A DNA stretch of 64,000 bases from NCBI RefSeq assembly GCF_026210795.1, contig NC_089434.1, forward strand, positions 4,464,001 through 4,528,000, read 5' to 3'. The translations under genes were made by a program, and so were the position numbers. This document shows positions 13,855 to 39,812 of the stretch, one piece after another; within the stretch, counting starts at the first letter, position 1, and every line of letters starts with the position of its first letter. Origin of the DNA: Rhizophagus irregularis. Taxonomy: Eukaryota; Glomeromycota; Glomeromycetes; Glomerales; Glomeraceae. A model generated the notes under the pieces. It worked only from the letters and a program-made list of their open reading frames with translations. It did not search any database and had not been told where the DNA came from.

Positions 13855-14779
13855 CAAAATCGGTGGTAACAATGTTATTTATTAATTTTGTAAAATTATT
13901 TTTTTTTCCTCGTTGCGAAATTGTAATTCTAAAAGAAAAATTTCCTTAGATATTATGATAGAATTATAGATACTAGCTAAATAAACCCTAGATCAAGCAA
14001 GCAAACAATGACGTCGGTAGAAGTGAATTTGATTGCCATCCGTACACAAATCAGTCCCGATTTGGTTTCGATTTGAAAAGTTTCTGCAAAGAAGTTAAGC
14101 ATTTTTTTAAGTTTTGGTCGTTAAAAAAATTATTTAATAATAATATCATAAGCAAAAGTGTAAAAGCCTTTAATGATGTCTTGTAAAAAATAATGTAAAG
14201 AGTAAATACTTTAATTTTTTTCCACGATCTATCCATAATCTCTTCACGATCCCCGACGCGGTAATAATTAAACGTTTTATATAAAGGGAAAATGCATATC
14301 TCGCAGTTAAAATCTCGCATTCTGTAACAAAAAAAGAAATTCTTAATATACAAACTTTTTTAAAAAATGTCTAATATGTGTATTTTCCCCTGCTCTGCAA
14401 GTTTACTTAATTCTGGTCAGAATTAAATGATCGTCATACAGAATATCCTTTTTGGAATAAAGGCGAGATTTAAACATCACACAATCACACATGGGTGCGA
14501 GATCTAAATTTACCCTACGAGAAATTTATTCCTCACCCTCCAATCACGTGAAATTTAACGTTTATAATTTTTTTTTTAAAAAAAATTAGTAACGCGTTTA
14601 TTAATTATGGTTATTTTAAAAAAAAATTACAGAAGACTATCTAAATACTACACTAAACTATTATGTAATTTAACTCTCGTTCCCCAATTATTTTTAATCG
14701 ATCTATCCACTAGTTACATCACCTAATAAACTATCTCTTGTTACTAATTTAATTAATTTTCTGTATTTTTTTCATTTAA
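13855..14779. other. Region without a supported gene
   Basis: It includes a 100-codon minus-strand frame (14051-14353) with no recognisable motif, which I treat as chance. CCAATCACGTGA at 14540-14551 is a CCAAT plus E-box-like site about 440 bp before the next array. Confidence 0.4.
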
Positions 14780-14989
14780 ACTATTTTTATTTGTTTTTTC
14801 ATTTTTTCTTTTCTTGATTTTTTATTACCGTCCCTATCATCATCATCATCTTTTCTTTTTTTCCTTTTTCTCTTATCCTTATTATCTATACCCTTATCTT
14901 TCTCTATTTCAGCCACTTCATCGTTCTTAACGTTTATAATTAGTACATGCGTCAATTGCGTCATCATATAAAACTATTTGTTTCGCTTT

Positions 14990-15375
14990 ATTTTCTTTAG
15001 CAGCTGACGGCCAGAATTTTTTTTCTTTGGTATCAGGTATGTTTCTTTATTTTTTTTCTTCCTTATTTGTTTATTTAATATTACATTTCTAACTTCTTTC
15101 CTTTTTTCTTTCTTTTAAGTCTTTGGGCCTTTTGGTTTCGCGTTTAAAGGTATGTTTCCTCTTTTTTGTTTTCGTTCCTTACTTTTCATTTTTTAATTCC
15201 TTTTTCTTTTTTTTTCGGGTCTTTAGATTTTCGACTCTATGGTTAAAAATAAGTTTTTATTCTTTTTCTTTTTTTTCTTTGTTTTTTGTTCTTGCTTTTT
15301 ATTTCTAATACTTTTTTTTCTTTCTTCAGTAGGTTCTTCTTCGGGTTTGCAGTCAAAGGTGTGTCTTTGCTTTCC
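14990..15375 (+). repeat. Tandem micro-exon-like array (about 4 units)
   Basis: Plus-strand units each show a pyrimidine tract ending in AG, a block of about 25-30 nt, and a GT donor. Examples: GGTATCAG before GTATGTTTC near 15037; CTTTTAAG, then TCTTTGGGCC...TTTAAAG, then GTATGTTTCC (15119-15160); GTCTTTAG, then ATTTTCGACTCTATGG; CTTTCTTCAG, then TAGGTTCTTC...CAGTCAAAG, then GTGTGTC (15329-15365). Spacing is about 80-120 bp. The blocks show no protein family. A poly(A)-type AATAAA is at 16127-16132, after the pyrimidine tract. Confidence 0.55.
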
Positions 15376-15479
15376 TTTTTATTTTGTTTTTTATATTTTG
15401 TTTCATACTAAATACTAACTATATTCTATTCTTTATTTTATGGGTTTCTCATTTACGGGTTTTGTCCTTTCTTTGTTTT

Positions 15480-15990
15480 AAATTTTTGTGGGTTGCTTTT
15501 CGTTCTTCTTCCCCCTTTTTGCTCTTTTTCGTTTCTCCTTCCCTTTTTCTTGTTTTCTTTCGTCCCTTCTTTTCTTATTATCTTTCATTCCTTCTTCCCT
15601 TTTCCTTGTTCTTTTTTATCCTCCTCCTTATTATTTTTCGTTTCTTCTCTTTTTTATTACTCTTATTCGTTCCCCCTTCTCTTTTTCTTACTTTTTTCAC
15701 CCTCTTTCTTTTCTCTTATCCTTTTTCGCTCCTCTTTTTTTTATTATTCTTTTTCTTCCTTTTCTTGTTCTTTTTTATTTCCTTTTCCTTTTTTCGCTCT
15801 TTCTCATTTTCATCTATTTTTTTCATCATGTTTCGTTCCCTATTGTTTTTTCGTCCTTTATTATCTTTTTTTCACCTTATCTTTATCTCCCATCATTTTT
15901 CATCATCTTTTCATTTTGTTCATCACCTTTTCATCTTTATTATTTCGTTCATTACATTTCATCTCTTATGTTTTTTTCGTTACCTAGTTT
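15480..15990 (+). repeat. Pyrimidine-rich (C/T) degenerate tandem tract
   Basis: About 500 bp of almost pure C/T with recurrent TTCGTTCC, CTTGTTCTTTTTTAT and TTATTATTTTTCGTTTC-like blocks; the wider pyrimidine bias runs from about 14780 to 16010. The long F/S/L-rich frames on all three plus-strand registers are composition artefacts. Mirror-repeat stretches could adopt triplex DNA. Confidence 0.8.
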
Positions 15991-16139
15991 GTTTGTTGTT
16001 AAAACAAAATGTATATTTCTTGACTCGGAAGTAAAACCTGCCTGTTAGGTGATCATGTTTTTCTGATATATTACTCGTATGTAGCGCTCTTGTCTTTGAC
16101 TTGTTTTGTTATATATTTAGTAAATTAATAAACATCAAT

Positions 16140-28232: not shown

Positions 28233-29057
28233 TTTTTTCACATTTACTTGTTAAATAAATGTATTAGGATTCCATCAGTACATTAAAATAATTAACGTAT
28301 TTTTGCTAGAGTTTGTTGATATCTATCGGAAGCGTTGATGTATAATCCTTAAATTCTTTCCTCCTTTTTTTTAGAGTCATGTGGCAACGTCTTAATTTTG
28401 ATATATCGCAGATATATTATTAAATTTTATTTAGTTTTTACTACATTGAATTTAAATTTTTTAAATCACTGATATATTAACTAATTAATGCATAATTTTA
28501 ATAATGTGCCATCTAGAAGTGGGAATAATATTGCTAATAATTTATTAATCAAAGTATTTGACTTTATAGTGGCGAACAAAGGCAGTTCGAACCAATTTAG
28601 TTAATTTTGTCATATTAGTATTTGTTGTAAAAAGTTCTTATCTATTGCAGAAATCCATCATGCCAAAACAACAATTGTCACATCATCATGATCGTGCCTT
28701 CCCTGTATACAGAATAATTATTATAAAAAACGCTTGTTTATAATAACTTTATACTGATGTATTGACATAAATATTAGACAAATTCACAATTTATACTTTA
28801 AAAACGCATTTTTATTTACTATTGTTTAATTATATTAATAATATTCCCTATAAGAAATATGTATACGGAAAGGATACGTTTTGTATACATTTTATGTACG
28901 TTTCTATAGTTTCCGTATACAAATTCCGTATATTTAATAAGCAATTCATTTTTGAACATTTTTTAAAAAAACTAATGTATACGGAAAAAATTAATCATAC
29001 GGAATGTATACGGAATTTTTAAACTTAATATTTTTTAGTTACGTATCATAACACGAG

Positions 29058-29112
29058 ATCACGTGATTGTTTATTGTTTTGTTTATGATACGTTTTTTGT
29101 TTTTTATATAAA
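29058..29112 (+). promoter_or_regulatory. E-box palindrome plus TATA box
   Basis: ATCACGTGAT (29058-29067) lies 37 bp before TATATAAA (29105-29112), facing the T/C-rich array in the element. This is a plausible RNA polymerase II core promoter; expression is not shown. Confidence 0.45.
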
Positions 29113-29519
29113 CCCTTACTTTGATGAGTTTGATCTTCCGATCTTCCTTTCTGTCTTGTCTTATTTTTGTTATTTTTTCTAAATTTTTCTTCTTTTGTCA
29201 CCCCCCTTTTAAAAAAAAATTTTTTTTTTCGTCACTCCCTTAAAAAAAAAAATTTTTTTTTGATTTTATTCTTTTATTCCCACTATTCCCACACTTCTTT
29301 TTTTTAAAAAAAAATTTCTTCTTTCTATTTCTATTTCCTCTTTATAAAAATTTTTTATTTTTCTAACTTTGACGTCCTCCCTTTAAAAAAAAAATTTTTT
29401 TTTTAACTTTCCTAACTTCGTTACCCTCTTTTTAAAAAAATATTTGTTTTTGATTTATTCTTTATTCCCCTTTCTTTTTTATTTATATATATCCCTTTTT
29501 TTATTTCATAGGCCAGCAG

Positions 29520-29960
29520 ATTTTTTTTTTGTGAGAAGATTCAGTTTCTTTTTTCTTTTTTGTAGATCAGTTTGGGAGTCCTTCCTTTTGTAGGATTGTT
29601 TAGGATTTTTTTCTTTTTTTAAGTCAGTTCAAATTTTCTTTTTTTTTTTTTTGTAAGTTGGGTTCAGATTCTTTTCTTTTTGTAGGTTGTTTCAGTTTTG
29701 TTGCTTCAGAGTCTTCTTTTTTTGTAGGTCAGTTTTGGATTTATTTTGTTGTTTTGGTTTCTTTTTCATCAGATGCTTCATAATTCTTTCATTTATGTAG
29801 GTCAGACATTCTGGAGTTCTCTTTCTTTTTTTGTAGGAATGCTGACCTTTGGTGACTTGGACGATTGCAGATACTATATGAAGGGGGTTTTGTTTCCAAT
29901 TAAGTTAGACGTTCTTATGTTTCTTTTTTTTGTTTTTTTTTTAGGTTGTTTGACTCCAAA
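29520..29960 (+). repeat. Tandem array of TTTTTGTAG 3'-splice-site-like units
   Basis: At least eight pyrimidine tracts ending in (T)GTAG or TTTAG occur at about 29565, 29593, 29685, 29728, 29800, 29836 and 29944, with degenerate copies at 29622 and 29655. Each is followed by 20-50 nt that often starts GTCAGTTTTGG or GTTGTTT. An 86-codon frame (29746-30006) crosses the last units and reads through the tracts. After splicing, the final blocks could give LTPNEPELIDNFGCNRWF-stop. A poly(A) signal AATAAA lies at 30068-30073. Confidence 0.5.
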
Positions 29961-30539
29961 TGAACCTGAACTTATAGATAATTTTGGTTGCAATAGGTGG
30001 TTTTAATAAGGAGGGAATTTTCATAATGTATTTGTATTTTGTTTATTTTTTATTTTTTATTTAATTTAATAAAGTAAAATTAGATTTATGTAAATATATT
30101 ATAGTAAACTGTAATACAAATAGTAAATTCAGTGACCAAATCGTATAAATTTCGTGATAAAATCAGTGATCAAATCATGTAAATTCCATATGAATTCCGT
30201 GCAAATTCCGTATCCAAACCATATTTTAGTGATACAGAATTGTGCATTTTTCCGTATCCTATTATGATACGTTATTTCTAAGGAAAAAAAATCGTATAAA
30301 AACTTTATAAAAAACGTATCCCGATTTTTTTATAGGGATTATATTTATATTGCCATATATTTATCTTATTAAATTTATTATATTTTTTAAAAACCTTATT
30401 TTTTTTACATATCATAATTAACATATATATGTTTCCATAATAATATTAATAATTTTAAGAATTTTGTAGTCCATAAATTATAGTCTACGAAATTCAATTG
30501 TGAAAGAGATTTTTTTTCACAATATCATTAAAATGTTGT

Positions 30540-38561: not shown

Positions 38562-39812
38562 CAGTGGTGTGCAAAAAAAATGACAATTTTTTTGAGTAAT
38601 GATCAGCAGGCATAACTTATCCGATTTTAGTCGTATCTACACAAATAAATATGCGTATGAAAGCCCCGTGATTACTTTATTTTTTAACGAAAAATTTTAA
38701 CCGTATAAAATGCCACTATCTAAGCAAGAAACTCAAAGACAAACGATATTACAATTCTGGAGGCAAGGAATACGTACTGCCGCCAAAATTCATTCTTTGA
38801 CAAAGATACCACTTAGGACAATATATAGGAACCTTAAAAAAATCAAAAAAACCGGAGATGTGAAACATAGAGGTGGCAATGGACGTATTAGTAAAATAAC
38901 GCAAAAGGCTGCTCGTGAAATTGGACAATATATTCGAAGAAAACCCACAATTACCGCCAAGTTCATTGCTGCCAAATTGGAAGATGTTGGTGTTAACGTC
39001 TCTCGCTCAACAGTTTCAAGGTATTTGACCAGTCACGGATACAAAAATGCACTCCCCCTTGCTACACCAATGCTTACTCCAGCCCATAAGCATAAACGTA
39101 TTGAATGGGCACAAAATCACATGAATGATGACTGGGCAAAATACTTTATTTAGTGATGAGACAGCTTTCCAGCTATTCCGCAACACAGTAAGACATTGGT
39201 ATAAAAAACAACGGCCAATTCGTCCCATACCAAAAGACCGAAGTAAAATTTTTGCATGGGGTGGTTTTTGCATAAGAGGTAAAACAAGTCTTTTTTGTTT
39301 TAGGGGTATAATGGATGGAAAATTTTACACAAAAATATTAGAAAGACAAATTCCAGAGGTGTACAGTATGTTAGGAGATAGTTGGCGGCTGCAACAAGAT
39401 AATGATCCTAAACATACTAGTCGGGTTGCTAAGGAATTTCTCAAAAATAATGTCCCAGAGGTTATGGACTGGCCATCCAATAGTCCAGATCTAAACCCCA
39501 TAGAAAACCTTTGGGCAATTGTTAAGAGAAATACAGAGTTGCGTAGACCAAAAAATCTTAATGAATTAGATGTTTTTTTGCATGAAAAATGGGTAAAAAT
39601 TCCAAATAACCTCCTAATTAATCTTGTAAATTCAATGCCGCAACGTTGTAGGGAGGTTATTGACAGAAATGGTGAACGAATACCATATTAATTTTTTTTA
39701 ATAAAGTCTACTATGTTTTAGCTTTAAAATAATACTTTTTATTTTTTGATTGGTTTATTGGTTAAAAAATTAACGTGACTTGAAAAATTGTCATTTTTTT
39801 TGCACACCACTG
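38562..39812 (+). mobile_element. Tc1/mariner element, 1251 bp, complete ends
   Basis: Thirty-bp identical terminal inverted repeats start CAGTGGTGTGC and are flanked by TA target duplications (38560-38561 and 39813-39814). One transposase reading frame spans almost the whole element. Length, ends and duplication are those of a standard Tc1-type transposon. The identical ends and a single frameshift suggest recent activity. Confidence 0.95.
38710..39691 (+). pseudogene. Tc1-type transposase (DD34E) with one frameshift
   Basis: The transposase cuts and pastes the element at TA sites. ATG at 38710 starts a 147-codon frame with two HTH units (ILQFWRQGIRTAAKIHSLTK; SRSTVSRYLTSHGYKNAL) and the RKPTITAK linker, ending at TAG 39151-39153. 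The catalytic part continues one frame over to 39691. First aspartate in LFSDETAF, second in QQDNDPKHTS, glutamate in SPDLNPIENLW with the DD34E spacing. Joined length is about 325 residues, normal for the family. The frame change lies at an A4 run (39138-39141), where one extra A accounts for it. That could be a true inactivating mutation, a sequencing error, or programmed slippage. The C-terminus CREVIDRNGERIPY is typical. Confidence 0.92.

Follow-up and report, generated by a model that had tools for sequence, protein, structure and literature searches.

A high-copy, probably EnSpm/CACTA-like non-autonomous DNA transposon of Rhizophagus irregularis with an acceptor-rich, donor-poor strand

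In a stretch of 64,000 nucleotides of the Rhizophagus irregularis genome (the window, C6:4464001-4528000), positions 28846..30337 of the + strand hold a 1492 bp element with terminal inverted repeats (TIRs), which is probably a cut-and-paste DNA transposon, non-autonomous and present in many copies, of EnSpm/CACTA-like type with non-coding cargo. The kind of mobile element is a known one; the unusual part is its cargo, one strand of which is, as a property of the sequence, rich in splice-acceptor-like sites and poor in donor-like sites.

The element begins with CCCTATAA at 28846, runs to 30337 in TTATAGGG and lies between two copies of a 3-bp target duplication, ATT (28843..28845 and 30338..30340), bearing out the borders and the duplication proposed in the first-pass annotation. 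Its left end (28846..29035, + strand) carries opposed subterminal repeats, TATACGGAA at 28862, 28978 and 29007 and TTCCGTATA at 28911 and 28924, and its right end (30110..30337, - strand) closes in TTATAGGG after shorter TTCCGTA repeats at 30206 and 30250; the opposed subterminal repeats also named in that annotation are present, their full 9-mers being confined to the left end and only the shorter TTCCGTA occurring at the right. The interior has a palindrome, ATCACGTGAT, which includes CACGTG (29058..29067; exact in 44 of the 59 full copies described below), followed by a TATA-box-like TATATAAA (29105..29112, + strand), exact in 55 of the 59 copies and missing from L055, L059, L060 and L075. 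A stretch of repeated A-tract/T-tract palindromes (29181..29450), including a 33-bp tandem repeat at 29181-29261, corresponds to the region of highest variability from copy to copy. The acceptor-like cluster of six TGTAG and other AGs occupies 29505..29944 (+ strand), and an AATAAA resembling a poly(A) signal is placed at 30068..30073 (+ strand); the TATA-like site and the AATAAA had both been called before, and both were found. A 55-aa open frame of the window copy (29839..30006, + strand) was not taken as a gene, since no more than 4 of the 59 copies keep a 55-aa form of it open.

The genome in which copies of the element were sought comprises 32 contigs and 146,748,485 bases. Searching with the whole element gave 46 matches (40 of 452 candidates scored), the left-end 25-mer with up to 2 mismatches gave 332 (reversed control, 0), and two right-end patterns gave 34 and 254 places, possibly overlapping. 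For the first 100 left ends, a right end was listed within 1.7 kb in 64 cases and farther away in 14, with none listed in the remaining 22. Among the first 40 loci, 32 yielded full copies, as did 27 of a further 37, where the remaining ten were dropped because they had no canonical end; the resulting 59 were chosen among best matches or listed left ends and so form a non-random sample. They measure 1259-1600 bp, and identical 3-bp flanks were present in 56 of them (the exceptions being L009, L033 and L064), with 27 different words among the 56 duplications and a base preference in that G stood first in only one. With 332 left-end matches and these duplications, the view that the element is mobile was upheld. 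Two copies, L055 and L059, lack both the TATA region and a piece of the array that carries two of the six TGTAG, the second and the third, and they stand at different sites within duplications of their own (CGG and ACC). As both moved though deleted, the TATA region and the missing part of the array are unneeded for movement.

Several loci showed features of their own. L004 is a copy that has landed in a G run of another family member, and the border shows a 5-G match. L068 and L070, which lie on different contigs, have the same flanking sequence over at least 8 bases to either side, so that one of them may be a segmental duplicate. Insertion or break points in copies fell within consensus positions 258-317 in 10 of 23 cases, i.e. 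in 60 of 1588 positions (binomial 4e-9, for an interval picked post hoc in a non-random set of copies, from a list of points made partly by eye). This interval corresponds to about 29085-29140 of the window, around the TATA-like site; a second group of break points lay in the A/T tract at consensus 681-702, and the clustering could be explained by promoter targeting or by plain A/T preference. Other sequence of about 3-13 kb interrupts the copies L074/L086, L076/L087, L063/L037, L089 and L090, the last with a 765-aa frame that we take to resemble part of a LINE. At L050, a gene-like frame starting MPAQLSTILYVSDYKERTSSD follows, as judged by eye, about 0.9 kb downstream of a broken left part of the element (398 element positions) that includes the TATA-like site, and donation of a promoter to this frame is possible. 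All that the L053 locus keeps of the present family is about 35 bases of a left end; at 1431-1625 lies a distinct small element whose ends are CCCTATAAAGACGAAATGTGTT...AACACATTTCGTTTTTATAGGG and which is flanked by a CAA duplication; it was perhaps moved by the same enzyme as the present family.

By its ends and its duplication, the element appears to be a large non-autonomous TIR element of EnSpm/CACTA-like class. Elements of the EnSpm/CACTA (CMC) group have ends that begin CMCWR, a 3-bp target duplication without fixed sequence and subterminal repeats in both orientations. In the present family, CCCTA stands at both ends of all 59 full copies, which fits CMCWR (partly by construction, the copies having been selected by their ends), the duplications in 56 of 59 copies vary over 27 words, and subterminal repeats occur in both orientations, the right side being the weaker. 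PIF/Harbinger elements make a 3-bp duplication of TWA type, which does not fit the present duplications (TTA in 2 of 56, TAA in 0 of 56).

Transposases of the EnSpm/CACTA superfamily are abundant in this genome, with at least 155 Transposase_21 matches and 123 Plavaka rows. In one element there that bears a Transposase_21 match, the ends are CACTGGTC and both copies show, by eye, 3-bp duplications. No autonomous relative with the ends of the present family was found when the first 100 of the 332 left ends were compared by eye with the listed Transposase_21 (155 matches) and the 123 Plavaka rows. Among the matches listed, a single transposase row (C3:1038964) lay within 12 kb downstream of a left end, 8.8 kb from that at C3:1047715, a copy which looks ordinary because its own array is reached within 2.1 kb. 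Three of the 14 end pairs longer than 1.7 kb were fetched and rejected as autonomous copies, being ordinary copies with inserts. The consensus matched neither three pairs of transposase-bearing loci nor the rest of the window. Elsewhere in the window, at 38701-39688, are two long frames with a QDNDPKHTS motif that presumably resemble a Tc1/mariner transposase.

Forty-four stop-to-stop frames of at least 25 aa (25-92 aa) overlap the element, and the only one scanned, that of 92 aa, had no Pfam match at E<=1; the 55-aa frame is part of it, and with this part open in 4 of 59 copies the coding reading was rejected. Frames differ among the 59 copies and none is conserved, and neither a transposase nor a conserved reading frame was detected in the element, in keeping with the absence of transposase reported earlier. 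No Rfam family reached its gathering score in the window, the two matches in the element (E 0.3 and 0.87) falling far below theirs.

A layout of TATA-like site, acceptor-like AGs, short last frame and AATAAA is gene-like, as would be expected if the interior were the remnant of a captured or decayed host or transposase gene whose introns had supplied the acceptors. We hold this improbable. Two array-unit patterns occur at 215 and 221 genomic places, fewer than the 332 left ends, and for 77 of the 88 exact array-unit matches listed on C1-C10 an element end lies on the side where it should; of the 11 remaining, two are in interrupted copies (L057, L035) and another five proved, once fetched, to be intact or broken copies. 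No source gene for the array was seen among the array-unit matches looked at on C1-C10. Donors are scarce, a conserved frame is absent, the scanned frame lacks a Pfam match and the consensus is unmatched in the three transposase-bearing families fetched, all of which likewise speak against capture. The suggestion of a captured host gene made in the first-pass annotation was not borne out, the examined array matches being element copies with no conserved frame.

The array contains TGTAG at 29561, 29589, 29681, 29723, 29796 and 29832, spaced by 28, 92, 42, 73 and 36 bp, together with further pyrimidine-tract AGs among and after them at 29623, 29627 (TCAG), 29657 (TAAG), 29772 (TCAG) and 29944 (TTTAG), and an AG ending at 29511 (CATAG). 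It had been described as eight or more regular units of TTTTTGTAG every 30-60 bp, a description that did not survive counting: there are six TGTAG only, 28-92 bp apart and irregularly spaced. An origin by tandem repetition was also rejected, since Tandem Repeats Finder gave short runs only and no 30-60-bp unit, and the segments that follow the AGs resemble one another only as much as random segments do (P 0.38). The array does exceed what T-richness gives, as had been proposed. TTT[N]TGTAG has 10 overlapping starts (at the six sites) in the array, where chains trained on its own sequence average 0.28 (order-1) and 0.64 (order-2), and at least 6 matches were reached in 0 (order-1) and 0.3% (order-2) of 2000 chains; other T- or A-rich 480-base stretches of the window have no TTT[N]TGTAG. 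An order-3 chain, with a mean of 3.9 matches and 6 reached in 26%, fails to separate the array from chance because it already learns the words. The array also recurs inside the other copies, every one of the 59 having between four and six TGTAG (6 in 30 copies, 5 in 23 and 4 in 6).

These motifs could be sites at the RNA level for a protein of Nrd1/Seb1 type that would end transcripts early, the element then making a short non-coding RNA or blocking read-through. Cross-links of yeast Nrd1 show UGUAG and those of Nab3 GNUCUUGU, according to a passage of PMC3197677, and a passage of PMC5382271 has Nrd1 recognising UGUAA/G and Seb1 binding UGUA. By analogy with these proteins, the six TGTAG and one TCTTG (29154) of the window element, both motifs coming after the TATA-like site, would be consistent with such a role. 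We nevertheless consider it doubtful: the binding data come from yeasts, TTTAG, ATCAG and GTCAG sites share the tract-AG form without TGTA (of the five non-TGTAG sites scoring at least 8 in the splice model below, one sits 5 bases after a TGTAG), and TGTAG columns, when compared with the rest of the array outside T-runs, showed no significant conservation (P 0.15).

To score splice sites, we used a host model built from 31 introns of actin and chaperonin genes of the same genome, delimited by an automatic rule; the set may contain errors, and GT[AG]NG donors were preferred where several cuts fitted, so that the donor model is biased. The full model served to score the sites of the element, and each real site was left out of the model that scored it. 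The model introns have lengths of 61-182, and their commonest acceptor ends are ATAG (8) and TTAG (6), GTAG occurring in 2. The six TGTAG scored, in order, 10.6, 5.9, 14.1, 12.0, 10.0 and 10.3, compared with a median of 4.4 and a maximum of 10.0 for left-out real acceptors. Twenty-one AGs of the array lie above the lower quartile of real acceptors, a density equalled in 0 of 2118 480-bp stretches of the window (both strands), and the 5 AGs scoring at least 10 exceed expectation from composition (order-1 mean 1.3, P 0.007; order-2 mean 1.6, P 0.023). All 59 copies have 4-8 AGs scoring at least 10 on the + strand, and on the - strand 47 copies have none, 11 have one and 1 has two. The acceptor-like motifs of the first-pass annotation therefore match a host-derived model at sequence level in 59 of 59 copies.

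Donor-like sites followed the opposite pattern. On the + strand of the window copy, 1 of 88 GT reached the lower quartile of real donors, compared with 12.8% in the window, 9 of 45 on the - strand of the same copy and 5 of 57 in a T-rich control tract, with several + strand candidates just under the cut-off (4.3-5.0). Chains of order 1 and 2 for the whole element predicted 7.5-8.6 donors (P 0.001-0.002), and those for the interior 4.1-4.3 where 0 were observed (P 0.014-0.018). Across the 59 copies, an average of 1.9 of 83 GT were donor-like. The control tract, window 14560-15840, is itself strongly T-rich and strand-asymmetric, and at window 15001-16000 the AT skew is -0.68 and the GC skew -0.40.

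Such a strand might be a working splice-acceptor array, with RNA from the element or from host exons spliced to several AGs and ending at the AATAAA, which would yield families of spliced non-coding or chimeric RNAs. This would accord with the scores of 10.0-14.1 for five of the six TGTAG (5.9 for the sixth) where real acceptors reach 10.0 at most, with an AG-richness found in no other 480-bp stretch of the window, with the excess of high-scoring AGs over composition, and with the five of ten consensus sites scoring at least 8 that keep the tract-AG form without a TGTAG ending. We judge it a rather unlikely reading, if a more credible one than capture or early termination. The + strand of the window copy has hardly any donors, which makes splicing confined to the element improbable; of the five gaps between TGTAG, three fall below 61 nt, the minimum length among the 31 introns; and no CTRAY lies within 55 nt of 11 sites, real introns with CTRAY being only 7 of 31.

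The pattern of substitution also bears on this reading. Raw substitutions affected acceptor AG columns in 10 of 1152 cases (0.87%) and other A/G of the array in 236 of 7807 (3.0%), a contrast (Fisher 4e-6) in which related copies are counted repeatedly. Strong conservation of the acceptor AGs was dropped as a conclusion because the copies are related, and parsimony on the tree removed the effect: changes per column were 0.45 at acceptor AGs, 0.43 at other AGs of the element (P 0.64) and 0.68 at the array's remaining A/G not in runs (P 0.19). A substitution-only simulation gave P 0.027 for acceptor-AG conservation and is a weaker test than parsimony, which across the 59 copies revealed no excess conservation of the kind that selection on acceptor AGs would leave. 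A self-spreading transcription unit with alternative acceptors, as had been envisaged at the outset, sits badly with few donors on its own strand, moved copies that are TATA-less and no excess conservation of AGs.

Our preferred reading is that the interior is passenger DNA on a trans-mobilised transposon. The element would be recognised, at its CCCTATAA ends and its subterminal ATACGGAA/TTCCGTAT repeats, by a transposase from elsewhere, probably of EnSpm/CACTA-like class and acting in trans. The 3-bp duplication would arise on insertion. The interior, comprising the TATA-like site, the A/T palindromes, the one-strand cluster of acceptor-like AGs and the AATAAA, would have been inherited from the founder, would be unneeded for movement and would undergo mostly neutral decay. 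When a copy lies in sense within a host intron, its donor-poor acceptor cluster followed by AATAAA may capture upstream exons, and mobile passenger DNA with an exon-trap side effect is, from the motifs, possible. A natural gene-trap transposon, sense intronic copies of which would take over upstream exons to give truncated or chimeric RNAs across several hundred copies, would go further and seems to us a long shot, drawing its main support from the acceptor-rich, donor-poor strand.

We found no description of the element family, or of an acceptor-array transposon, in the open-licence literature searched, and repeat libraries may contain the family without a name. In a passage of PMC11075540, about two thirds of the transposable elements (TEs) of R. 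irregularis are reported as unclassified; the present work defines one TE family of this fungus, which has clear borders and 332 matches to its left end. Should the acceptor cluster be used, transcripts of the host could be reshaped at some hundreds of loci. R. irregularis has, in a passage of PMC8647823, long been considered an ancient asexual, and long-read cDNA is described for R. irregularis DAOM197198 in a passage of PMC10234402.

The family resembles non-autonomous EnSpm/CACTA (CMC) elements in its CCCTA end, varied 3-bp duplication, two-way subterminal motif and lack of a transposase, but differs from them in that its interior holds an acceptor-like cluster, and its ends differ from those of the CACTGGTC family of the same genome. 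Engineered gene-trap cassettes combine an acceptor with a poly(A) signal; the present element similarly has acceptor-like sites and then a poly(A)-like signal without a donor, but it is natural and its putative acceptors are many. The MITEs of R. irregularis, limited to 50 bp-1 kb in a passage of PMC11075540, share with it terminal inverted repeats, the absence of a transposase and many copies, whereas the present element, at 1.26-1.60 kb in 59 copies, is above their 1 kb limit. Exonized transposons such as mouse L1, which carries functional antisense splice sites according to a passage of PMC2176070, are a further parallel in that a mobile element brings splice sites that host transcripts might take up; in contrast to L1, the present family, known from sequence, has its acceptor-like sites gathered on the donor-poor strand that also bears the TATA-like site and the AATAAA.
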